This document shows positions 1,819 through 12,979 of a stretch of DNA of 64,000 nucleotides, in pieces. The notes beneath the pieces are model-generated. The model searched no databases and was not told where the DNA came from. It saw nothing but the letters and a program-made list of their open reading frames with translations. How positions within the stretch are numbered: the stretch's first letter is position 1; the number at the start of each line of letters is the position of its first letter. A program made the translations under genes and the position numbers. Source of the stretch: Xanthobacter sp. YC-JY1 (GTDB taxonomy: Bacteria > Pseudomonadota > Alphaproteobacteria > Rhizobiales > Xanthobacteraceae); assembly GCF_021730305.1 (NCBI RefSeq), contig NZ_CP032674.1, positions 2,031,001 through 2,095,000 on the forward strand, written 5' to 3'.

Positions 1819-2889
1819 TCACGCCACGCAGGCAAGGAAGCCCTCTTCGAGCAGGTCGCGCTTCAGCTGGCGGCCGATGAAGACGATGCGGCTCAGCCGC
1901 TTCTCGTCGTCCTTCCAGGGGCGCTGGTGGTCGCCGTCGAGGATCATGTGGACGCCCTGGAACACGAAGCGATCGGGGTCGTCCTTGAAGGAGAGGATGC
2001 CCTTCGAGCGCAGGATGTTCGGCCCCTCCACCTGCACAATGTTCTGCACCCAGGGGAAGAACTTGTCCGGGTCCAGCGGCTTGTCGGTGGAGAAGGAGAC
2101 CGACTGGATCTCCTCGTCATGTACCGCCTTCAGCCCGTGGTGGTGGTGGTCATGATCGTGGTCGTGATGGTCGTGGCCGCAATCGGGGCCGCAGGCCTCG
2201 CCGTGCTCATGATGGTGGTGATGGTGCTCGTCTTCCTCGAGGAAGGCGGGCTCCAGCTCCAGCACGCGCTCCAGGTCGAAGGCGCCCTGGTTCAGCACCT
2301 TGGCGATGTCGATCTCGGACTTCTGGGTGCGATAGAGCTTGGCGTAGGGGTTGATGCCGCGGATGCGGGCTTCCACCGCGTCGAGTTCCGCGCCGGTCAC
2401 GAGGTCGGTCTTGTTGAGGAGGATTACGTCGGCGAAGGCCACCTGGTTCTTCGCCTCGGGGGCGTCCTTCAGGCGGTCGGACAGCCACTTGGCGTCGGCC
2501 ACCGTGACCACGGCGTCGAGCTTGGTCTTGGCCTGCACTTCCTCGTCCACGAAGAAGGTCTGGGCGACGGGCGCGGGGTCGGCGAGGCCGGTGGTCTCCA
2601 CGATGATGCCGTCGAAGCCGCCCTTGCGGCGCAGCAGGCCGTCGATGATGCGGATGAGGTCGCCGCGCACGGTGCAGCAGATGCACCCGTTGTTCATCTC
2701 GAACACTTCCTCGTCGGCGCCCACCACGAGGTCATTGTCGATGCCGATCTCGCCGAACTCGTTGACGATGACGGCGAATTTCTTGCCGTGGGGCTGCGAC
2801 AGGATGCGGTTGAGCAGCGTGGTCTTGCCGGCGCCCAGGTAGCCGGTCAGCACGGTGACGGGGATCTTCTCGGCCTGCGTTTCAGCCAT
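1819..2889 (-). CDS. CobW/G3E-family GTPase, putative zinc metallochaperone
   Basis: 356 aa. It has a G1/Walker A motif GYLGAGKTT (residues 16-24), the G3E signature CxCC (C69-I-C71-C72), and the G4 motif NKTD (159-162). A very His-rich loop follows (about 222-251, runs of H with D and two Cys), then a CobW C-terminal domain ending with basic residues. The family uses GTP to deliver Zn or other metals to client proteins. It lies 62 bp downstream of znuA as the last gene of the zinc uptake operon, so a zinc role (ZigA/ZagA-type chaperone) is much more likely than cobalt insertion into cobalamin, despite the family name. The client protein is not evident from this window. Confidence 0.9.
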   Translation of the reverse strand: MAETQAEKIPVTVLTGYLGAGKTTLLNRILSQPHGKKFAVIVNEFGEIGIDNDLVVGADEEVFEMNNGCICCTVRGDLIRIIDGLLRRKGGFDGIIVETTGLADPAPVAQTFFVDEEVQAKTKLDAVVTVADAKWLSDRLKDAPEAKNQVAFADVILLNKTDLVTGAELDAVEARIRGINPYAKLYRTQKSEIDIAKVLNQGAFDLERVLELEPAFLEEDEHHHHHHEHGEACGPDCGHDHHDHDHDHHHHGLKAVHDEEIQSVSFSTDKPLDPDKFFPWVQNIVQVEGPNILRSKGILSFKDDPDRFVFQGVHMILDGDHQRPWKDDEKRLSRIVFIGRQLKRDLLEEGFLACVA

Positions 2890-2951: not shown

Positions 2952-3941
2952 TCAGCTCGACAGGGCGGTGGAGAGCTCGCGCACGTTGGAGTGCATCATG
3001 TCGATGTAGGTGCTCGCGGGGCCTTTGTCATCGGACAGCGCGTCGGAATAAAGCTCGCCGCCCACCTTGGCGCCACTCTCCTTGGCGATGCGCTGGATGA
3101 GGCGCGGGTCGGTGACGTTCTCGACGAACACCGCCGGGATCTTCTGCGCCTTGATCTGGCGGATGATGCGACCCACGTCCTTGGCCGACGCCTCGCTTTC
3201 GGTGGAAACGCCCTCGGGGGCGATCAGGGTCAGGCCGTAGGCCTCGCCGAAATAGCCGAAGGCGTCGTGCGAGGTGATGATGCGGCGCTGCTCGGCCGGG
3301 ATCTTGGCCATGGAGGACTTCACCTCGGCCTCCAGCGCGTCGAGCTTGGCGGTGTAGGCGGCGGCGTTGGCGGTATAGGCGTCGCGGCCGTCCGGATCGG
3401 CGGCGATCAGGCCGTCGCGGACGTTGGCGACGTAGATCTTGGCGTTGGCGATGGACTGCCAGGCGTGCGGGTCGATGCCGCCGTGGTCGTGGCCGCCTTC
3501 CTTGGCGTGGTCGTGCTTGTCCTTGCCCTTGCCCTTCGGCTTCTCGTCGTCGTCATGATCGACGAAGCCGGTGCGCGGCGTGATGCCCTTGGTGGCGACG
3601 ACGATGGGCGCCTTGGTACCGGAGGCCTTGATGAGGCGATCCATCCAGCCCTCGAAGCCGAGGCCGTTCACGAACACCACCTTGGCGGCGGCCACCGCCT
3701 TCGCGTCGGCGGGGGTGGGCTGGTAAACGTGGGCGTCGCCATTGGGGCCGACGATGGTGGTCACGGCCACGCGGTCGCCGCCCACCTGCTTCACGAAATC
3801 GCCGAGGATGGAGAAGGAGGCCACCACGGGCATCTTCTGGGCGGGCGCCTGCGCAAGCGCAGGTCCGGCCATGGGCAGGCCAAGGCCGGCGGCCAAAGTG
3901 CCGGCAACGCCGGCGGCGAGGAGGAGGCGTCGGGAGATCAT
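2952..3941 (-). CDS. znuA: Zinc ABC transporter substrate-binding protein ZnuA
   Basis: 329 aa with an N-terminal signal peptide (RR followed by a hydrophobic core, ending near PALAQA). It is a cluster A-I (ZnuA/TroA) metal-binding protein: H71 in NGDAHVYQPTPAD, a His/Asp/Lys-rich loop at about 129-153, H159 in DPHAW, and a third His in TSHDAFGYFGEAYG are the expected zinc ligands. The charged His loop is diagnostic of zinc rather than manganese members. It works in the periplasm and hands Zn2+ to ZnuB. Only 11 bp separate it from znuB upstream. Confidence 0.95.
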   Translation of the reverse strand: MISRRLLLAAGVAGTLAAGLGLPMAGPALAQAPAQKMPVVASFSILGDFVKQVGGDRVAVTTIVGPNGDAHVYQPTPADAKAVAAAKVVFVNGLGFEGWMDRLIKASGTKAPIVVATKGITPRTGFVDHDDDEKPKGKGKDKHDHAKEGGHDHGGIDPHAWQSIANAKIYVANVRDGLIAADPDGRDAYTANAAAYTAKLDALEAEVKSSMAKIPAEQRRIITSHDAFGYFGEAYGLTLIAPEGVSTESEASAKDVGRIIRQIKAQKIPAVFVENVTDPRLIQRIAKESGAKVGGELYSDALSDDKGPASTYIDMMHSNVRELSTALSS

Positions 3942-3952
3942 GAAAGTCCTCT

Positions 3953-4825
3953 TCAGGCTTCAAGGTGACGGCGAGGGACGAAGCGGCCGGCGAGGCCGCC
4001 GATTGGCCCGAGGATGACCGCGCCGGCATAAGCGAGCCCGGCGACCAGGATGATGGATGGGCCGGACGGCGTGCCGAGGTGGTAGGAAACGAGCAGCCCC
4101 GCGACGCCGGAGCCGAAGGCGATCAGCGTCGAGGTGGTGACGAGGGCGGTGAGGTCCCGCACGAAGAAGCGCGCGGTGGCCGCCGGCAGCATCATCAGCC
4201 CCACCGAGAGCAGCGTGCCCAGCGCGTGGAAGCCGCCCACGAGGTTCAGCACCACCAGGGACAGGAAGGCGATGTGGCTGACGCCGCCGCTGCGGCTCAC
4301 CGAGGCGAGGAAGGTCGGGTCCACGCATTCCAGCACCAGCGGCCGCCAGACCACGGCGAGGGTCAGGAGCGTGACGGTGGTGATGCCGGCAATCAGCATG
4401 AGCGTCGCGTCGTCGATGCCCAGCACGGTGCCGAACAGCACATGCAGCAGGTCCACGTTGGAGCCGCGCAGCGAGACGATGAGCACGCCCAGCGCCAGCG
4501 AGATGAGATAGAAGGCCGCCAGCGAGGCGTCCTCCTTCATCCCCGTGGCCCGCGCCACCACGCCCGCGCCCACGGCCACCAGAAGGCCGGCCGCGAGGCC
4601 GCCGGCGGTCATGGCGTAGAGATTGAGGCCGGCGAACAGGAAGCCGATGGCAGCGCCGGGGAGGATGGCGTGGGCCATGGCGTCGCCCGTCAGCGACATG
4701 CGCCGCAGCATCAGGAACGCGCCCACCGGCCCCGCGCCCAGCGACAGCGCAAACACGCCGGCGAGCGCGCGCCGCATGAACTCGAACTCCGCGAAGGGAG
4801 CGAAGAAGGTGTCAAAAAGGCTCAT
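3953..4825 (-). CDS. znuB: Zinc ABC transporter permease ZnuB
   Basis: 290 aa, ABC-3 family integral membrane protein with about eight hydrophobic segments. It shows the family's conserved DAMAHAILPGAAIGF segment near residues 50-64 and the later ARFFVRDL and HALGTLLSVGLMMLPAA segments. It forms the inner-membrane channel with the ZnuC ATPase. In this operon znuC is transcribed first, then an unusually long 203-bp gap holding a large hairpin, then znuB and znuA. Confidence 0.95.
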   Translation of the reverse strand: MSLFDTFFAPFAEFEFMRRALAGVFALSLGAGPVGAFLMLRRMSLTGDAMAHAILPGAAIGFLFAGLNLYAMTAGGLAAGLLVAVGAGVVARATGMKEDASLAAFYLISLALGVLIVSLRGSNVDLLHVLFGTVLGIDDATLMLIAGITTVTLLTLAVVWRPLVLECVDPTFLASVSRSGGVSHIAFLSLVVLNLVGGFHALGTLLSVGLMMLPAATARFFVRDLTALVTTSTLIAFGSGVAGLLVSYHLGTPSGPSIILVAGLAYAGAVILGPIGGLAGRFVPRRHLEA

Positions 4826-4891
4826 CGAACCATCCCGGGCCGCGCGCCGCGCGAAAGGCGGCCGGCCGGATCAGTCATCGCCATGCCCTTG

Positions 4892-4970
4892 CGCTTGGCC
4901 GGGGAGCCGATCCGGTGGGTTGGAGGAACCGGATCGGCCTCGGACGGAGCCCGTGGTCCCCGGCCAAGCG
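4892..4970. repeat. Large nested inverted repeat between znuC and znuB
   Basis: The outer arms are a perfect 14-bp match: CGCTTGGCCGGGGA (4892-4905) and its complement at 4957-4970. Inside lies a second inverted repeat, GATCCGGT (4909-4916) with ACCGGATC (4928-4935), extendable by flanking GCC/GGC. The structure sits in the middle of an operon where gaps are otherwise short. It could be a REP-like extragenic element, an mRNA-stabilising hairpin or an attenuator. No T-tract follows on either strand, so it is not a classical terminator. Confidence 0.7.
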
Positions 4971-5028
4971 AAAGAGCAGCGATGTGCGTCCATGGAACCG
5001 GCTGAGGCCGGTCGGTGAAGTCTTTCCG

Positions 5029-5769
5029 TCAGGCCGCGTCGGAGCAGGGGAGGGCGTCATCCCTCCACGACTCGCCCAGGCGGCGGGCCTTGAGCAGGTT
5101 CTCGGGGCCGAGCGCTTCCGCGGTGGGGCCCCAGGCGACGGGGGTGCGGGCGAGGAGAAGCGTCTCCGGGAAGGTCGCGCGCACCAGGTCGAAATCGTGC
5201 AGCACCGCGATGACGGTGCGCTTCTCGCCGTGCCAGCGGCGGACGAGGTCCACGAGGTCCGACACGGTCTTGGCATCGAGGGCCGTGAACGGCTCGTCGA
5301 GCAGGATCACGCGGGCGTCCTGCAGCAGTAGGCGGGCGAAGAGGGTGCGCTGCATCTGCCCGCCGGAGAGCGTGCCGATGGGGCGGGTCTCGAAGCCTTC
5401 GAGGCCGACGGCGGCGATGGCGTGCTCGATCTTGGTGCGGTCGGCGCGGCCGATGCCGCCGAACAGGCCGGCCCGCCGCCACAGGCCCATGGACACCATG
5501 TCATAGACATGGATGGGGAAGCTGCGGTCGATCTCGGCGCCCTGCGGCAGGTAGGCGATCTCGCGTGGGTCGAGGCCGTGGCGGTCGATGCTGCCGCCGA
5601 GCGGCTTCAATGCGCCGCCAATGCCCTTGAGCAAGGTGGACTTGCCGGCGCCGTTAGCGCCGCAGATGGCGAGCAGCGCGCCCTGCTTCACCTCGCCGGA
5701 GAGGTGATGCACGGCCGGATGGCGCTCATAGCCGAGGGTGAGGTTGCGGAACGAAATCTGCGCGCTCAT
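5029..5769 (-). CDS. znuC: Zinc ABC transporter ATP-binding protein ZnuC
   Basis: 246 aa starting MSAQISFRNLTLGYE. Walker A GANGAGKST (37-45), signature LSGGQ (134-138), Walker B VILLDEP (154-160) and an H-loop in AVLHDFDLV are all intact, so it is a functional ATPase by sequence. The start at 5769 overlaps the stop of the upstream small His-rich gene as ATGA, which fixes the start and implies translational coupling. A longer in-frame extension upstream exists but runs through that gene in another frame. Confidence 0.93.
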   Translation of the reverse strand: MSAQISFRNLTLGYERHPAVHHLSGEVKQGALLAICGANGAGKSTLLKGIGGALKPLGGSIDRHGLDPREIAYLPQGAEIDRSFPIHVYDMVSMGLWRRAGLFGGIGRADRTKIEHAIAAVGLEGFETRPIGTLSGGQMQRTLFARLLLQDARVILLDEPFTALDAKTVSDLVDLVRRWHGEKRTVIAVLHDFDLVRATFPETLLLARTPVAWGPTAEALGPENLLKARRLGESWRDDALPCSDAA

Positions 5770-6065
5770 GCACCGCCTCCCGTCACCAGCAGCACGGCGC
5801 CCCACAGGACGATGATGAGCGCCGACACCAGCGCGAGCCGTCCGGCCAGGGACATGCGCAGCACCGATGCGCCGATGCGCACGGGCGGCCTGCGGTCCGC
5901 CGGGGAGGCTGCATGGGCGTGAGCGGCATGTGCAGCGGCGTGCCCATGGCTGGCCGGGTCGTGTCCCCCCGCGGCGGCAGCGCCCACGGGCGCGGCGCGG
6001 TCCTGCCGGGCGGTCGCCTCGCGGGCCGGCGGCGTCGCTGCGGAAGGGGAAAGGGACAGGGACAT
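5766..6065 (-). CDS. Small His-rich, tail-anchored membrane protein heading the znu operon
   Basis: 99 aa from ATG 6065. An upstream GTG at 6137 in the same frame would add 24 residues but would place the candidate Zur dyad inside the coding region, so the shorter form is preferred. No strong Shine-Dalgarno precedes the ATG. The protein has a Pro/Ala N-terminal part, a His cluster (GGHDPASHGHAAAHAAHAHA, about residues 34-53), a basic stretch DRRPPVRIG, then one strong hydrophobic helix (LALVSALIIVLWGAVLLV) ending just before the C-terminus. This is the layout of a tail-anchored inner-membrane protein with a cytosolic metal-binding region. I do not recognise a named family. Coupling to znuC suggests a role in zinc uptake or sensing; this is inference. 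Confidence 0.65.
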   Translation of the reverse strand: MSLSLSPSAATPPAREATARQDRAAPVGAAAAGGHDPASHGHAAAHAAHAHAASPADRRPPVRIGASVLRMSLAGRLALVSALIIVLWGAVLLVTGGGA

Positions 6066-6097
6066 GGGGTCCGGCGTGCTGTTTTCGATGGCTAGTT

Positions 6098-6110
6098 GAT
6101 ACAGTGTATC
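6098..6110 (-). promoter_or_regulatory. Candidate Zur operator of the znu operon
   Basis: Minus-strand GATACACTGTATC is a perfect 6-1-6 dyad centred about 39 bases before the first gene of the zinc operon, where a repressor would be expected. Alphaproteobacterial Zur boxes are AT-rich dyads with GATA/TATC-like ends, so the match is plausible but not exact. No zur gene is in this window. Confidence 0.45.
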
Positions 6111-6182
6111 GCTCAGCCTTGTCCAGCCCGCCGACACCCCACCGCACGCTTTTGTGCGGTTCCCCTCAGTCAGTCGGCGTGC

Positions 6183-7967
6183 CTATTCGGCGGCCGCGGA
6201 AAAGGCGCGGAAGCTGCGGAACTCGGTGATGTCCCGCGCCCCCTCCAACGCCGCCGCCTCGGCGAGGAAGCCGGTGACGCGGCTGCCGTCGTCCAGCTCC
6301 ACCTGCCCGAGGCCCAGGGGCGCGGGAATGGTGGCGAGGAGGCGGCCGACGCCCTCGAAGGGCAGGGACCACACCTCGCCCTCCACCGCCGCGCCGTCCG
6401 CAGTCACGCGAACGACGCCGGGGCGGGGAATCGCGCCCGGGAGAAGCTTCATGCGATAGGACGGCACGGTCTTCGCGGCGCGCACGAAGCGCGCGCCCAT
6501 GGCCTTCAGGTCGCCATTGAGCGGCATGCCGGAGAGGTGGGCGCCGAACACGCAGACATCGAGCCGTCCCGGCTCGCTGGCAGGCGCGAGCGCAGGCAGA
6601 GCCGGCGCCGGCGCATGGCCGCAGCCCAGCGGCAGGGTGCCCGCCGCCACATAGGCGCGGCCCAGCGCCGCCATCTCCGCGTCCCGCCCGGCGGGAGCGA
6701 GGAGGGTGATGCCATAGGGCACGCCGGCCGCGGTGATCTTGGTCGGCACGGCGATGCCGCACAGATCCATCAGGTTCACGAAATTGGTGTAGGTGCCATT
6801 GCGCGAATTGAGGCGGATGGGATCGGCCAGCACCTCTTCCACCGTGTAGGCGGAGGGCGCGGTGGGCAGCAGCAGCGCGTCGATGCCGGCGAGGATGGGG
6901 GCGACGCGCGCGCGCAGCTCCTTCAGCCGGTACATGGCGCGGAAGGCATCCGCCGCGCTCGCCTTGCCGCCCGGCTCGGTGATGGCCCGCGTCACCGGAT
7001 GCACCGCATCGGGGTCGGTGGTCAGCAAATGCTCGGCGGCGATCCAGCGCTCCGCCACCCACGGCCCCTCATAGAGCAGGCGCGCGGTCTCGGCGAAGGC
7101 GGAAAAATCGATCTCCTTCAGCACGGCGCCCAGCGCGGCGAAGCGCGCCAGCGCTTCCTCATAGGCCACGGCGGATTCGGCATCGCCGAAGAACTCCCGC
7201 TGCGCCTCGGGCAGGATGCCCAGCACCGGCGCGGGCGGCGCGGCGGTGAGCGGGCCGACTGGCAGATCGCGCGAATAGGCGTCCTGCTCGTCGAAGCCGG
7301 CGATCACGTCCAGCACCGCCATGGCATCGTCCACGGTGAGGGCGAAGATGGAGATGCAGTCCAGCGTCTTGCAGGCCGGCACGAGGCCGGTATTGGGCAC
7401 AAGGCCGAGGGAGGGCTTCAGCCCCACGATGTTGTTCAGCATGGCCGGCACGCGGCCGGAGCCGGCGGTGTCGGTGCCCAGCGACACCGGCACGATGCCC
7501 GCGCCCACCGCCACCGCCGAGCCGGAGGAAGAGCCGCCCGGCACCAGCTCCGGGTTCACGGAATTGCGCGGGATGCCATAGGGCGAGCGCACGCCCACGA
7601 GGCCGGTGGCGAACTGGTCCAGATTGGTCTTGCCGATGATGAGCGCGCCCGCCGCCTTGAGCCGCGCCACGACGGTGGCATCGCGCTCCGGCACATAGGC
7701 GAAGGCCGGGCAGGCGGCGGTGGTGGGCAGGCCGGCGACGTCGATATTGTCCTTCACCGCCACCGGGACGCCGTAGAGCGGCAGGTCCGTGTTGCTGGCG
7801 GCTTCCAGTGCGGCCGCCTCGGCCAGCACGTCGGCTTCCTCGCGCAGGGTGATGAACATGGCCGGGTCGTCATGCACCGCAAGCCGGGCATAGACGCCGC
7901 GCACCGTATCCGAGACGGAGCGGAGGCCGGACCTGTGGGCTTCGAGGAGGCTGGCGACGGTCTGCAT
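6183..7967 (-). CDS. atzF: Allophanate hydrolase
   Basis: 594 aa. The N-terminal amidase-signature domain has the catalytic Lys72 (AVKDNIDVAG), the cis-Ser in GGSSSGSAVAVGAG (about 144-157) and the nucleophile Ser170 in GTDTAGSGRVPA. The C-terminal domain (from about residue 470; FGAHLSGMPLNGDL, then SYRMKLLPGAIPRPGVVRV) is the AtzF/DUR1,2-specific extension that separates allophanate hydrolases from other amidases. It converts allophanate to ammonia and CO2, the second step of ATP-dependent urea or biuret breakdown. No urea carboxylase, biuret hydrolase or transporter is adjacent, so the allophanate source must lie elsewhere. The start at 7967 fits family N-termini. The upstream 191-bp gap contains an AT-rich patch near 8038-8085 suitable for a promoter. 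Confidence 0.92.
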   Translation of the reverse strand: MQTVASLLEAHRSGLRSVSDTVRGVYARLAVHDDPAMFITLREEADVLAEAAALEAASNTDLPLYGVPVAVKDNIDVAGLPTTAACPAFAYVPERDATVVARLKAAGALIIGKTNLDQFATGLVGVRSPYGIPRNSVNPELVPGGSSSGSAVAVGAGIVPVSLGTDTAGSGRVPAMLNNIVGLKPSLGLVPNTGLVPACKTLDCISIFALTVDDAMAVLDVIAGFDEQDAYSRDLPVGPLTAAPPAPVLGILPEAQREFFGDAESAVAYEEALARFAALGAVLKEIDFSAFAETARLLYEGPWVAERWIAAEHLLTTDPDAVHPVTRAITEPGGKASAADAFRAMYRLKELRARVAPILAGIDALLLPTAPSAYTVEEVLADPIRLNSRNGTYTNFVNLMDLCGIAVPTKITAAGVPYGITLLAPAGRDAEMAALGRAYVAAGTLPLGCGHAPAPALPALAPASEPGRLDVCVFGAHLSGMPLNGDLKAMGARFVRAAKTVPSYRMKLLPGAIPRPGVVRVTADGAAVEGEVWSLPFEGVGRLLATIPAPLGLGQVELDDGSRVTGFLAEAAALEGARDITEFRSFRAFSAAAE

Positions 7968-8158
7968 GGTCTACCCTGATGACGGCGCTCCACGCGCCTG
8001 ATGGCAGGGGTCTAGCAGGAAGCGCGCCACTTGTATGCAATTTCTGATAAATTCATAAATATCAGATGGTTGATTTAAAAGAGTTGCGCCCCGCCGCGGC
8101 TGGATTTGCCACTGCGGGGCGCAGGAAACGGGGTTTGTGCCCAGAAATTAGGCGCCGT

Positions 8159-8377
8159 TTACGGGCGGGTGCCGTTCTGCTCCGACGGCGAGAGTGTCCG
8201 GCCGGGCGCCGCATCGGGCGCTGTGGTCAGCGGCGGGGGATTTCCGCGCGGCACCGTGATGTTTTCCGGTGCGGTCTCGCTTGGCGCCGGCGTGCCGCGG
8301 TTGGAGAACATGTTCGCCGCGACCAGCGCGAGGACCAGCACGAATGCCGCGGCGATAAGCATGCCCTGGCGTTGCAT
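8159..8377 (-). CDS. Small single-pass membrane protein, unknown
   Basis: 72 aa from ATG 8377, preceded by AAAGGAGAG about seven bases upstream. One N-terminal hydrophobic helix (MLIAAAFVLVLALVAANMF) follows a short MQRQG start, then a Pro/Thr/Ser/Asn-rich tail (PSETAPENITVPRGNPPP) and an SPSEQNGTRP end. This is the usual form of short inner-membrane or periplasm-facing hypothetical proteins of Rhizobiales. It is 71 bp downstream of purU and may be transcribed with it. No function can be assigned. Confidence 0.55.
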   Translation of the reverse strand: MQRQGMLIAAAFVLVLALVAANMFSNRGTPAPSETAPENITVPRGNPPPLTTAPDAAPGRTLSPSEQNGTRP

Positions 8378-8448
8378 GGGGCTCTCCTTTTTGTGGATGT
8401 CGCCCCTTCAACGCCCCGGCCCCGGTGTCGGGTTCCGCTTTGTGACGC

Positions 8449-9318
8449 TCAGTCGCGGAACACCACGGTGCGGGAACCGTTCAGCAGCACCCGGTCCTGC
8501 AAGTGCCAGGAGATGGCCCGGGCCAGCACGCGGCGCTCGATGTCGCGGCCCTTGCGCACGAGATCCTCGGGCGAATCCTGGTGGGAGATGCGCTCCACGT
8601 CCTGCTCGATGATCGGGCCTTCATCGAGGTCCGAGGTCACGTAATGGGCCGTCGCGCCGATCAGCTTCACGCCGCGCGCATGGGCCTGGTGGTAGGGCTT
8701 GGCGCCCTTGAAGCCGGGCAGGAAGGAGTGGTGGATGTTGATGCACTTGCCCGAGAGCTTGGCCGACAGCCCGTCGGACAGCACCTGCATGTAGCGCGCG
8801 AGCACGGCGAGTTCCGAGCCGGAGGACTGGAAGATTTCCCAGACCTGCGTTTCCTGCTCCAGCTTGGTGGCCTTGGTCACCGGCAGATGGTGGAAGGGGA
8901 TGCCGTCGAAATCGAGGTGGGCATAGGTCTCACGCGGGTGGTTGGAGACGATGCCGGAGATCTCCATGGGGATCTCGCCGATGCGCCAGCGATAGAGCAG
9001 ATCCGCGAGGCAGTGGTCGAACTTGGAGGCGAGCAGCAGCACCTTCCGCTTTTCCGACACGGGGCGGAGCGTGAAGCTCAGCGAGAAGGTCTCCGCCACC
9101 GCCGAGAAGCCGGAGCGGATCTCGGCGAGGCTGGCCTCGCCCTCCACCACGTTGAACACCACGCGCATGAAGAAGCGGCGGGTCTCGGTGTCGTCGAACT
9201 GCTGCGCCTCAAGAATGTTGCAGCCCTTCTCGAACAGGAAGGTCGAGACGCCGGCGACGATGCCGGGTCGGTTGGGGCAGGAGAAGGCGAGGATGAACGG
9301 CTCGTTGGGGCTGGTCAT
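8449..9318 (-). CDS. purU: Formyltetrahydrofolate deformylase
   Basis: 289 aa. The N-terminal ACT domain (about 8-90; [20 protein letters not shown]) is followed by a formyltransferase-fold catalytic domain with the conserved [17 protein letters not shown] and [12 protein letters not shown] segments. PurU hydrolyses 10-formyl-THF to formate and THF. It follows the four-gene sarcosine-oxidase-type operon on the same strand. Those enzymes load formaldehyde onto THF, so PurU probably regenerates free THF and releases the methyl carbon as formate. The 105-bp gap to the preceding gene shows no terminator, so co-transcription is likely. Confidence 0.93.
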
Positions 9319-9423
9319 GGTGCGTCCTTAAGATGCGTCCTGGGGTGGCGCGCCGCGCGAGGTCGCAGGCGGGCGCCTTTCGGCAATTCGGGGGTGGCAG
9401 AGGAGGCGCGCGCCGCGCTGCCG

Positions 9424-10032
9424 TCAACCTCGATCGGTGCCGGAGAGGGCGAAGCCGTATTCCGCCGCGCTCGCCGCCAGCCAGCGCAGAAAGGCGGGCG
9501 CGAAGGTGTTGCCCACCGCGAAGCGATAGCTGGGCGCGTTGTCCCGCTGCCAGAAGGTGACGCCCACGTGGGAGACCGGCGTGGTCGCCGCATCGCCCGG
9601 CTGGAAGGCGCGGGGATCGAGATCCACCGCCACGCCCTTCACCAGCGCCTCGCGCGCCTTGGGGCCGCAGATGTCGAGCACGAGATTGGCGTCGCTCTGG
9701 TCGGTCACGGCGCCAAGGTCGGTCGCCAGCTCTTCCAGACGCCGGCGCAACGCGGCGCCGCTCGATCCTTCGGAAAACACCTGCCATTTGCCGGGGCCGG
9801 TGCCGACGGCTTCCAGTCCGGCGCCGCTGCTCGCCTTCGGCGCATCGACGAGCGGCAGGCCGGACGCGGTGGCGGCGGCGATCAAAGCGGCGGTCTTGCC
9901 CTTGCGGGCGACCAGCGTCGCGGCGGCAAGGTTCGTCACCACCTGCGCTGTGACGCCGGTGATGCCTTGAACGCCATAGTGCCCGGCCGGGAGGAGACGG
10001 GCGGGGGAGAGGGACTGGAAGAGGTCAGACAC
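9424..10032 (-). CDS. soxG: Sarcosine oxidase gamma-type subunit (SoxG / MgdD)
   Basis: About 202 aa from a GTG at 10032 (VSDLFQSLSPARLLPAG), chosen because GGGGAG lies seven bases upstream and the gene then overlaps the alpha subunit by only 8 bp. A longer reading would overlap it by 86 bp. The sequence matches the SoxG family: a GCV_T-like folate fold without catalytic residues, with GVTFWQRDNAPSYRFAVG and FAPAFLRWLAASAAEYGFAL near the C-terminus. It is the fourth subunit of a heterotetrameric flavoenzyme and completes the B-D-A-G order. See the alpha subunit for the choice between sarcosine oxidase and N-methylglutamate dehydrogenase. Confidence 0.88.
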   Translation of the reverse strand: MSDLFQSLSPARLLPAGHYGVQGITGVTAQVVTNLAAATLVARKGKTAALIAAATASGLPLVDAPKASSGAGLEAVGTGPGKWQVFSEGSSGAALRRRLEELATDLGAVTDQSDANLVLDICGPKAREALVKGVAVDLDPRAFQPGDAATTPVSHVGVTFWQRDNAPSYRFAVGNTFAPAFLRWLAASAAEYGFALSGTDRG

Positions 10033-12979
10033 GCTGCTTCTCCCCTTCGGGATCGACAAAGTGGGGAGAGCACACCTCGACCTCGATGTCACCGCCCCGC
10101 ACCGGGTCATAGGCGCGCAGCGTCTCGCCGATGCGCTCCGGCCCGCGCTTGAGGAGGCCGAGGCCGATGGAGTGGCCGAGGATGGGCGAATAGGCGACGG
10201 AGGTCATGTAGCCCTCGTCATTCTCAGTGGTGGGGGCCGCGCCGAGCGCGAGGAAATGCGCCCCGGCCTTGAGCCGCGCGCTCCGGTCCACCGGACGGAA
10301 GCCGACGAAGGTGGGCCGGTCGGGATCGGTGAAAGCGGGGCGTCCCGCCATCACGCGGCCGATGAAGTCCTTCTTGGTGGAGGCCATGCGGCCGAGGCCG
10401 AGGTCGCGGGCGGAGGTCTGCCCGTTCAGCTCGCTGCCGGAGACATGGCCCTTCTCGATGCGCAGCACGGCCAGCGTCTCGACGCCGTAGGGCGTGATGC
10501 CATAGGGCGCGCCGGCCGCCATGATGGCCCGCATCAGCGCGTCGCCATGGCGGGCGGGCACCGCGATCTCGTAGCCGAGCTCGCCGGAGAAGGAGAGGCG
10601 GAAGACGCGCGCCTCGACGCCGCCCATCACCGTGGTCTGGAGCGCGCCCATGAAGGGCAGGCCGGTGTTGGAGACATCCGCGCCGTCCACGAGCTTTGCC
10701 AGCACATCGCGGGAGCGCGGGCCGGAGACGGCGATCTGCGCCCACTGTTCGGTGATGGAGGCGAGGCACACGTCCAGTTCCGGCCACAGCACCTGCAGGC
10801 AGAACTCGAGATGCTGGAACACCTTGGCCGCGTTGGCGGTGGTCGTGGTCATCACATAATGGTCGTCGGCGAGGCGGGCGGTGGTGCCGTCATCCATGAC
10901 GATCCCGTCCTCGCGCAGCATCACGCCGTAGCGCGCCTTGCCGACACCGAGGGTGGAGAACATGTTGATGTAGACGCGATCCAGCAGCCGGCCCGCGTCC
11001 GGCCCCTGAAGGTCGATCTTGCCGAAGGTGGAGACGTCGATGACGCCGACGCTTTCGCGCGTCGCCTTCACCTCGCGGTTCACCGCCGCCTGCCAGTCCT
11101 CGCCGGCCTTCGGGAACCAGGCGGCGCGCAGCCACTGTCCGGTCTCCACGAACACCGCGCCCTGTTCCTCCGCCCACTGATGGGTGGGGGTGGGGCGGCT
11201 GGGCTTGAAGTCCACGCCGCGATGGTGGCCCGCGAGCACGCCGAGGGCCACGGGCGTGTAGGGCGGGCGGAACACGGTGGTGCCGGTCTGCGGAATGCCC
11301 TTGCCAGTCAGCTCCGCCATGATGGCGAGGCCCGCCATGTTGGAGGTCTTGCCCTGGTCGGTGGCCATGCCCATCGTGGTGTAGCGCTTCAGCAGCTCCA
11401 CCGCCCGGAAGCCTTCGCGATGGGCGAGGGCCACGTCCTTGGCGGTCACGTCGTTCTGCTGGTCCACGAAGGCGGGGCCCTTGGCGTGCACCTGCCAGAA
11501 GGCCTTGAGGCCGTTGGGCGCATCGCCCGCCACGGGGGCGGGAGCCGCGACGGGCGCGAAGCCCGCGTCCTCGGCCGCAGCGGCACCCAGCGCGGTGCCA
11601 TCGGCGAGGCTTTCGGCGAGCGTCAGGTGCCCGGCCGCCGCGCCCGCCACCGCCATGCCCACCGGCAGGGCGCCGGGCACGAAGGCGGCGATGTCCTCGC
11701 GCCAGATGGGCCTGCCACCCTGATGGCAGGTGAGGTTCACATTGGGCGTCGCGCCGCCGGAGACGCCGAGCGCCTCCACGGAGAGCGTGCGAACGCCCTT
11801 GGGCGTGCGCACCGTGACGCTCGACAGGCATTTGCCGGAGGTGGCGATGACCTCGCTCCCGGTGAGGAGATCGACGCCCAGCGCCTTGGCCCGCGCGGCC
11901 AGCGCCGGGGCAACAGCCTCCCGCACGTCGGCGATGGCTTCCAGCTTCACGCCGGCCGCGGCGGCATCGAGCAGCGCGGCGACGGCGTGGTCGTTGTTGG
12001 TGAAGCCCGCCGCCCGCGGCCCCGCGCCGACGCCGAAGCGCGTGGCATAGGTGGCGAGCGCCAGCGCCGACATGACGCCGGGCCGGTCATTGCCGGGGAA
12101 GACGATGGGCCGGTCGAAGGCGCCCGCCGCCAGCACGGAGCGCTTCGCGATGAAGCGCCACAGCCGCTGGCGGGGCTGGAACGGGGCGGGGACGGCGAGA
12201 TGGTCGCTCACCTTCTCCACCGCGCCGAATTCGCCGCCGTCATAGGCGCCGAACACGGTGGTGCGCGGCATGAGGCGCACATTGGGCAGGCTCGAAAGTT
12301 CCGCGAGGGCGCGCGCCACGAAATCCGCCGCGCTGCGGCCGTCGATCTCGGCCTGCTCGGACAGGAGCCGGCCGCCGAGGCGGAAATCCTCGTCCGTCAG
12401 CACCGCCCGTGCGCCGGAGCGCCCGGCCGCAAGGGCCGCCGCAAGGCCGGCGGCGCCGGAGCCGATGACCAGCACGTCGCAGAAGTGGGTGGCCTTCTCG
12501 TAATGGTCCGGGTCGGCTGCCTCGGCGGCACGGCCAAGGCCGGCGGCGCGGCGGATCATGGGCTCGTAGACCTTCTCCCAGAAGGCGGCGGGCCACATGA
12601 AGGTCTTGTAGTAGAAGCCCGCGCCGAGGAAGGGCGACACGAGCTGGTTCATGCTGAGGAGATCGACGTCCAGCGAGGGCCAGCGGTTCTGGCTGGTGGC
12701 CTCCAGCGCGTCGAACAGCTCGATGGTGGTGGCGCGGGTGTTGGGCTCGCGCCGGGCGCCGGAGCGCAGTTCCACGAGCGCGTTGGGCTCCTCCGAGCCG
12801 GCGGTGACGATGCCGCGCGGCCGGTGATACTTGAAGGAGCGGCCGACGAGGCGCACGCCATTGGCGAGCAGCGCAGAAGCCAGCGTGTCGCCGGGATGGC
12901 CGGTGTAGCTTTTGCCGTCGAAGCTGAAGGAGAGGGTGCGGCTGCGGTCGATCAGCCCCCCTGCGGAAAGCCGGGTCAT
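10025..12979 (-). CDS. soxA: Sarcosine oxidase alpha-type subunit (SoxA / MgdC)
   Basis: 984 aa, full length for the family. Domains in order: an N-terminal Fer2_4-like domain (FSFDGKSYTGHPGDTLASAL, no Fe-S cysteine set), a Rossmann NAD-binding domain (VIGSGAAGLAAALAAGRSGA, from about 168), a second dinucleotide half (RPIVFPGNDRPG), and from about residue 590 a GcvT-like folate-binding module with its C-terminal barrel. Known members oxidise an N-methyl amino acid and pass the methyl group to THF. Sarcosine oxidase and N-methylglutamate dehydrogenase are paralogous and cannot be separated by motif alone. The nearby gmaS-mgsABC cluster favours N-methylglutamate as the substrate. It overlaps soxD by 4 bp (ATGA). 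Confidence 0.92.
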   Translation of the reverse strand: MTRLSAGGLIDRSRTLSFSFDGKSYTGHPGDTLASALLANGVRLVGRSFKYHRPRGIVTAGSEEPNALVELRSGARREPNTRATTIELFDALEATSQNRWPSLDVDLLSMNQLVSPFLGAGFYYKTFMWPAAFWEKVYEPMIRRAAGLGRAAEAADPDHYEKATHFCDVLVIGSGAAGLAAALAAGRSGARAVLTDEDFRLGGRLLSEQAEIDGRSAADFVARALAELSSLPNVRLMPRTTVFGAYDGGEFGAVEKVSDHLAVPAPFQPRQRLWRFIAKRSVLAAGAFDRPIVFPGNDRPGVMSALALATYATRFGVGAGPRAAGFTNNDHAVAALLDAAAAGVKLEAIADVREAVAPALAARAKALGVDLLTGSEVIATSGKCLSSVTVRTPKGVRTLSVEALGVSGGATPNVNLTCHQGGRPIWREDIAAFVPGALPVGMAVAGAAAGHLTLAESLADGTALGAAAAEDAGFAPVAAPAPVAGDAPNGLKAFWQVHAKGPAFVDQQNDVTAKDVALAHREGFRAVELLKRYTTMGMATDQGKTSNMAGLAIMAELTGKGIPQTGTTVFRPPYTPVALGVLAGHHRGVDFKPSRPTPTHQWAEEQGAVFVETGQWLRAAWFPKAGEDWQAAVNREVKATRESVGVIDVSTFGKIDLQGPDAGRLLDRVYINMFSTLGVGKARYGVMLREDGIVMDDGTTARLADDHYVMTTTTANAAKVFQHLEFCLQVLWPELDVCLASITEQWAQIAVSGPRSRDVLAKLVDGADVSNTGLPFMGALQTTVMGGVEARVFRLSFSGELGYEIAVPARHGDALMRAIMAAGAPYGITPYGVETLAVLRIEKGHVSGSELNGQTSARDLGLGRMASTKKDFIGRVMAGRPAFTDPDRPTFVGFRPVDRSARLKAGAHFLALGAAPTTENDEGYMTSVAYSPILGHSIGLGLLKRGPERIGETLRAYDPVRGGDIEVEVCSPHFVDPEGEKQRV

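Follow-up and report, generated by a model that had tools for sequence, protein, structure and literature searches.

The zinc-importer type operon near the start of the window, which is the whole 64,000-nucleotide stretch of Xanthobacter sp. YC-JY1 DNA that was analysed, begins with a 99-aa open reading frame, and the question it raises is whether this frame encodes a protein and what such a protein would do beside the transporter. An earlier reading made from the sequence alone had pointed to the 99-aa frame, its His cluster, its C-terminal helix, its ATGA overlap with the ATPase gene and a perfect dyad, all of which were found at the locus. We refer to the product as a microprotein, in the sense of a protein of under 100 aa with one membrane helix, as in small accessory transporter subunits. 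The features of the operon are as follows.

6098–6110, no strand assigned: perfect dyad of 13 bp, GATACACTGTATC, the operon's probable Zur box (sequence and genome scan)
5766–6065, reverse strand: microprotein gene, 99 aa, ATG start, first gene of the operon (open reading frame call and homologues at the same place)
5913–5963, reverse strand: His cluster, residues 35–51 with six His, a lineage-specific tail absent in many homologues
5778–5870, reverse strand: conserved core of juxtamembrane segment and single membrane helix, residues 66–96 (alignment and prediction)
5766–5769, reverse strand: ATGA stop/start overlap of the microprotein TGA with the aztA ATG (sequence)
5029–5769, reverse strand: aztA (znuC-like) ATPase; NCBIfam NF040873, 222.8 bits, reaching the cut-off of 220
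3953–4825, reverse strand: aztB-like permease; best match NCBIfam NF040871, 266.7 bits, missing the cut-off of 280; Pfam ABC-3
2952–3941, reverse strand: aztC-like zinc-binding protein with a His-rich stretch; best match NCBIfam NF040870, 325.6 bits, missing the cut-off of 350
1819–2889, reverse strand: CobW-family GTPase with a His-rich stretch, after aztC; Pfam cobW and CobW_C

By these profile scores the transporter in the window is AztABC-like rather than a strict AztABC member, since its AztB and AztC fall below the cut-offs though these families are their best matches. The znuC and ZnuB names of the earlier reading need correction, as the genes are closest to AztABC and not to ZnuCBA. 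The gap between aztA and aztB is 203 nt (window positions 4826–5028); it is 34–237 nt in seven relatives and is replaced by an overlap in locus L109.

The interpretation that we favour, and judge to be reasonably probable on the comparative evidence, is that the microprotein would be a fourth, accessory subunit of AztABC-like zinc importers that has gone unrecognised, made of a single helix to which some lineages would add a portable tail that binds zinc.

Coding evidence and the upstream dyad

The length of the frame was rejected as evidence for a gene: many frames are open at this G+C content, and an open frame means little because 49 open reading frames of at least 60 aa overlap positions 3000–12000. 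The frame can be recognised as coding from three other observations. With the last 30 residues excluded, His makes up 17.5% of the true frame versus 1.4% and 2.1% of the other two, based on 74 homologues with very short ones skipped. Substitutions are most numerous at codon position 3 in nine of nine close pairs (7/9/14 and 13/15/28 over the three positions for the window pairs). The S, R and W of the helix, which are the invariant residues S67, R76 and W88 of the microprotein core, are present with the spacing S-x8-R-x11-W in all 75 C-termini that were aligned, the window's and those of 74 loci, which were chosen by hydropathy and not by this motif. In addition, pN was lower than pS in 113 of 120 helix pairs and 115 of 120 N-part pairs. 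The ratios of the means are modest (0.56 for the helix and 0.68 for the N-part, from 120 pairs among 16 rows, several of which are copies of one another so that the pairs are not independent), and the case for the gene consequently rests on deep conservation. We conclude that the frame at 6065–5766 on the reverse strand is a real, conserved gene.

The same results bear on whether the frame could be a leader, translated only so as to open the start of aztA and yielding an inert peptide. Such a role would suit the stop/start overlap, which occurs in many loci, and the position of the frame as the first after the dyad. However, the helix and its S, R and W are conserved at the amino acid level throughout the 75 C-termini and His is enriched in one frame only, and we regard an inert leader as very improbable.

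The dyad lies 32 nt upstream of the microprotein ATG and is the sole exact copy in the 5.39 Mb genome. The observation that the gene stands behind a perfect dyad was borne out, and the dyad is of metal-regulator type. Of 214 loci, 146 have a Zur-like dyad ahead of the microprotein, compared with 0.6% of mononucleotide shuffles, and the site at 6098–6110 is probably the Zur box of the operon. In microprotein operons the nearest Zur-like dyad is 103–426 nt before aztA (97 of 145 have a dyad), and in microprotein-free operons it is 9–81 nt before aztA (3 of 16 have a dyad). Three Fur-family proteins encoded in the genome score over the cut-off, one of which (L275, 40.9 bits) has two CxxC motifs and is presumably Zur.

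One further site in the genome differs from the dyad by one mismatch (L002:1501, genome C1:4286790). It precedes a CobW/ZigA-like GTPase gene and is probably a second Zur target, and a frame near it has what we take to be a resemblance to the PCuAC copper chaperone.

Distribution of the microprotein among azt operons

The sequence-only reading had staked its gene call on conservation in related operons, and conservation is what was found. Among 80 loci fetched by aztA alone from named genomes, 79 have aztB, and a short open reading frame with one C-terminal membrane helix and the motif lies directly before aztA in 73 of those 79. The six without it are five Mesorhizobium-type loci (L101, L104, L105, L110 and L111) and L108, which was scored as lacking the microprotein and is cut upstream by a contig end. 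In L107 the microprotein frame is present though the aztB criterion was missed.

At E ≤ 0.01 a profile of 51 members matched 108 of the 297 genomes sampled from the order, and at E ≤ 0.001 it matched 60 of the 397 sampled from the phylum. The best 30 matches and a few weaker ones from the order sample, and all 30 matches outside the order from the phylum sample, were fetched as loci. An AztA match was located directly downstream on the same strand in 75 of the 78 profile-match loci, a few of which are the same place twice, and the other three (L152, L154 and L168) are without azt genes. This is a genetic tie of the microprotein to one transporter type. In one search 135 of 198 genomes matched at E ≤ 0.01; this figure was not used as a number of homologues, as the composition of the tail gives chance matches and 30 loci were inspected.

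The distribution was also examined from the AztA side. At E ≤ 1e-50 the NCBIfam AztA profile had matches, other transporters included, in at least 150 of the 397 phylum genomes. Among the best 30 AztA loci of the phylum sample, 26 have aztB, 16 with and 10 without the microprotein, and aztB is present at 20 of 40 further AztA places without a microprotein profile match, nine of which have the strict motif, nine a helix frame with a decayed motif, and two no microprotein. After pooling at 90% AztA identity to give a non-redundant set across Pseudomonadota, the microprotein is present in 147 of 163 operons (10 by a looser criterion), a proportion that overstates the true rate because the pool was enriched by microprotein-based fetching. 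In 140 of the 147, the microprotein stop lies between −30 and +20 nt relative to where the aligned AztA begins. A total of 27 of 268 AztA-like loci, L107 among them, were set aside as not Azt owing to their having no AztB of at least 220 bits downstream; 19 of the 24 listed follow the end of a binding-protein-like frame of the GTYEGTY type, which we take to be of manganese type.

Fourteen of the 16 microprotein-free operons form one group in the AztA tree (support 87, with 13 of them at 99), and the other two (L248 and L268) are small-genome relatives. Among the members of the group are the loci fetched from Paracoccus, Sinorhizobium, Phyllobacterium and Devosia, the Mesorhizobium huakuii locus being a near copy of that of Phyllobacterium, and aztD is annotated beside two of its loci. 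Since the 14 operons of this one AztA group and the two relatives lack the gene, such a transporter can exist without the microprotein. The AztB positions that differ with and without the microprotein were not used, being confounded by the one group.

The fact that this AztA group keeps a recognisable AztB could be explained if the microprotein were an assembly or stability factor, whose helix aids AztB insertion or shields AztB from proteolysis without belonging to the working transporter; its very short core and its place as the first frame, overlapping aztA, would also agree with such a role. We consider this unlikely given that 75 of the 78 profile-match loci place the microprotein beside one transporter type and that there are hints of covariation with membrane residues of AztB.

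An AztA-like ATPase on a Bradyrhizobium sp. 155 plasmid (L277:1042–1923) has an annotated N-terminal extension of ~50 aa that does not resemble the microprotein helix, and a scan upstream of it revealed no microprotein.

The His-rich tail and CobW

The sequence-only reading was correct that the frame is a real small membrane protein gene with the anatomy it described, but it put its weight on the variable His part. Richness in His is not what defines the protein, because homologues with few or no His occupy the same position. Several distant members are ~34–50 aa long, with little beyond the helix and no His tail, and 65 of the 147 non-redundant microproteins are below the His-cluster criterion of 4 His in 12 residues. 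Among the 163 operons, the microprotein N-terminus is His-rich in 82, the AztA C-terminus in 19 and both in one. His-tailed AztA proteins were found in the microprotein-free group, for example in Phyllobacterium and Paracoccus alcaliphilus, with five of the 14 missing the His criterion (L201, L225, L226, L228 and L231), and also beside His-poor microproteins. When the combination of a His-tailed AztA with a His-poor microprotein was placed as a label on the AztA tree, using a looser His count, five changes were required, at least three of them forced by well-supported branches. The presence of the His segment on either the microprotein or the AztA tail, with these five changes, is why it seems to be portable between the two proteins on the cytosolic side, the helix being the core.

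Some details of the AztA tails are of interest in themselves. In the microprotein-free group AztA often has a His-rich C-terminal tail after a Cys (L224, L229, L232 and L191–L198), and Methylobacterium bullatum (L230) has a microprotein plus a His-rich AztA tail. A Cys near the AztA C-terminus, in contexts such as LPC, APWC, APAC and APPC, recurs in many tails, including that of the window (5029–5060), and is possibly metal-related.

A function as zinc sensor or inhibitor, or as a relay of zinc to CobW, exerted through the His-rich tail, had been proposed for the microprotein. The high His content of the N-part and its predicted disorder are in keeping with this, as is the occurrence of CobW in the window operon and in 62 of the 66 microprotein loci for which sufficient downstream DNA was available, compared with none of the six loci scored as lacking the microprotein (L108, one of these six, is truncated upstream). 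However, CobW presence does not track the His tail, as it follows the operon in 6 of 7 loci with His-poor and 56 of 59 with His-rich microproteins. These similar rates indicate that CobW goes with this operon type, and a link to CobW is possible. With so many microproteins below the His-cluster criterion, a sensor or relay may hold for the tailed members only, and we think this account quite unlikely.

In Skermanella, the microprotein gene is immediately preceded by an overlapping DUF1826 gene (L222:724–1344); DUF1826 is named in a figure legend on Zur-regulated COG0523 gene clusters (PMC2770081).

The membrane helix and comparison with known systems

AlphaFold2 predicted one helix for the 99-aa microprotein, at residues 66–96, and a low-confidence coil for the remainder. 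The Arg residues that precede the helix suggest that the N-terminus is inside. A profile search of the PDB yielded nothing meaningful (best E 0.019). For the AztB model the closest solved fold was the PsaBC manganese importer (PDB 7KYP/7KYO; TM by query length 0.78–0.83), whose entry titles list PsaBC and Fab only.

Covariation was examined by mean-field direct coupling analysis (DCA) of the microprotein, AztA and AztB. A first mutual-information run, which included a divergent clade, placed 76 of its top 100 pairs to AztA and not AztB, and the analysis was repeated without that clade. The top DCA pair was V91 (column 25) with AztB A146, in predicted helix 139–168 (z 9.7), and pairs of L87 (column 21) with AztB S101, in helix 98–120, and of A90 (column 24) with AztB A22, in helix 15–40, were also high. 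The states of the top pair (V-A 120, I-G 12 and A-V 6 of 162) look size-compensated. With an effective sequence number of 75, this pair ranked 3, 12 and 21 in three two-thirds subsamples, and in other high pairs the partner of a helix column was the cytosolic ATPase (M3-AztA7, z 8.5; M12-AztA198, z 6.9), some of these pairs being implausible for a membrane helix. A tree-based count of co-changes ranked the 25/146 pair first of 8596 (7 seen, 1.2 expected), column 21 with S101 third and column 24 with residue 22 2214th; the best p values (2.8e-4 and 8.9e-4) fail correction, and there was no overall excess of co-change, with 3 of 8596 pairs below p 1e-3 versus 8.6 expected. These data are at most a hint that the helix packs on AztB.

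The model that we propose for an accessory subunit is as follows. As zinc falls, a Zur-type repressor would leave the dyad, and the microprotein would be the first product, with its translation coupled to that of AztA. The helix, with the N-terminus inside, would pack against the AztB permease, the conserved juxtamembrane segment SxLRxS...R would lie close to AztA on the cytosolic side, and the microprotein would stabilise or tune the transporter. In Xanthobacteraceae and many other Hyphomicrobiales, the disordered His-rich cytosolic tail might hold zinc at the channel exit, a role that in other lineages could fall to the equivalent His tail on the AztA C-terminus. We know of no account of metal reception on the cytosolic side of such importers.

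The suggestion that the protein has no named family was confirmed by the profile libraries: neither Pfam nor NCBIfam gave any family for the window microprotein at E ≤ 1, and the 51 members gave stray matches of one or two members each (best E 0.004). Plasmid records call the frame a hypothetical protein (Skermanella WP_203101353.1, Paracoccaceae QEW23251.1 and Thioclava XBA80629.1), and in Neorhizobium NCHU2750 and Thioclava GXIMD4215 a frame of this kind is present and missing from the gene table, which is incomplete. No description of such a protein was found in the literature searched, a weak negative as most subscription papers lie outside that search, and the accessible parts of PMC5387054, PMC10797113, PMC7029138, PMC2770081 and PMC12183173 have no small open reading frame.

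The closest known systems are AztABC(D) of Paracoccus denitrificans and ZniCBA of Klebsiella pneumoniae and Rhizobium leguminosarum, whose ATPase, permease and binding protein come from the same families as those of the window operon and which likewise have zinc-dependent regulation, according to PMC5387054, PMC10797113 and PMC12183173. As described there, they have three genes (and AztD in Paracoccus) and no small open reading frame. The microprotein may have been overlooked in the R. leguminosarum zniCBA region, by analogy, because the Zur motif is given as 153 bp before zniC in PMC12183173, a spacing that fits relatives of family f22 with the microprotein between: in four of six of these the dyad ends 148–151 nt before the aligned AztA start, the AztA ATG being 3–6 nt beyond it, and the other two have no dyad by pattern. 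The Paracoccus loci in our set (L226 and L229, neither from P. denitrificans) are without the microprotein. More tentatively, the microprotein could be an ancestral, undescribed fourth subunit of Pseudomonadota AztABC-like importers, needed for normal zinc release or gating. Its zinc-catching His tail would have moved between subunits in evolution, and the protein would have escaped notice because the Paracoccus system characterised biochemically falls in the group from which it was lost.

Importers of this type supply bacteria that are starved of zinc, and a conserved neighbour of their ATPase offers a direct handle on them. Deletions, reconstitutions and structures made without the microprotein may have concerned an incomplete transporter, and the occurrence of the His segment on either of two proteins makes cytosolic zinc capture testable.

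Small single-helix subunits of membrane complexes include CydX, KdpF and AcrZ. The microprotein resembles these in being very short, in having one membrane helix and in being tied to one complex. It differs from them in belonging to no Pfam or NCBIfam family, in having an ABC zinc importer as its partner and in carrying an optional His tail.
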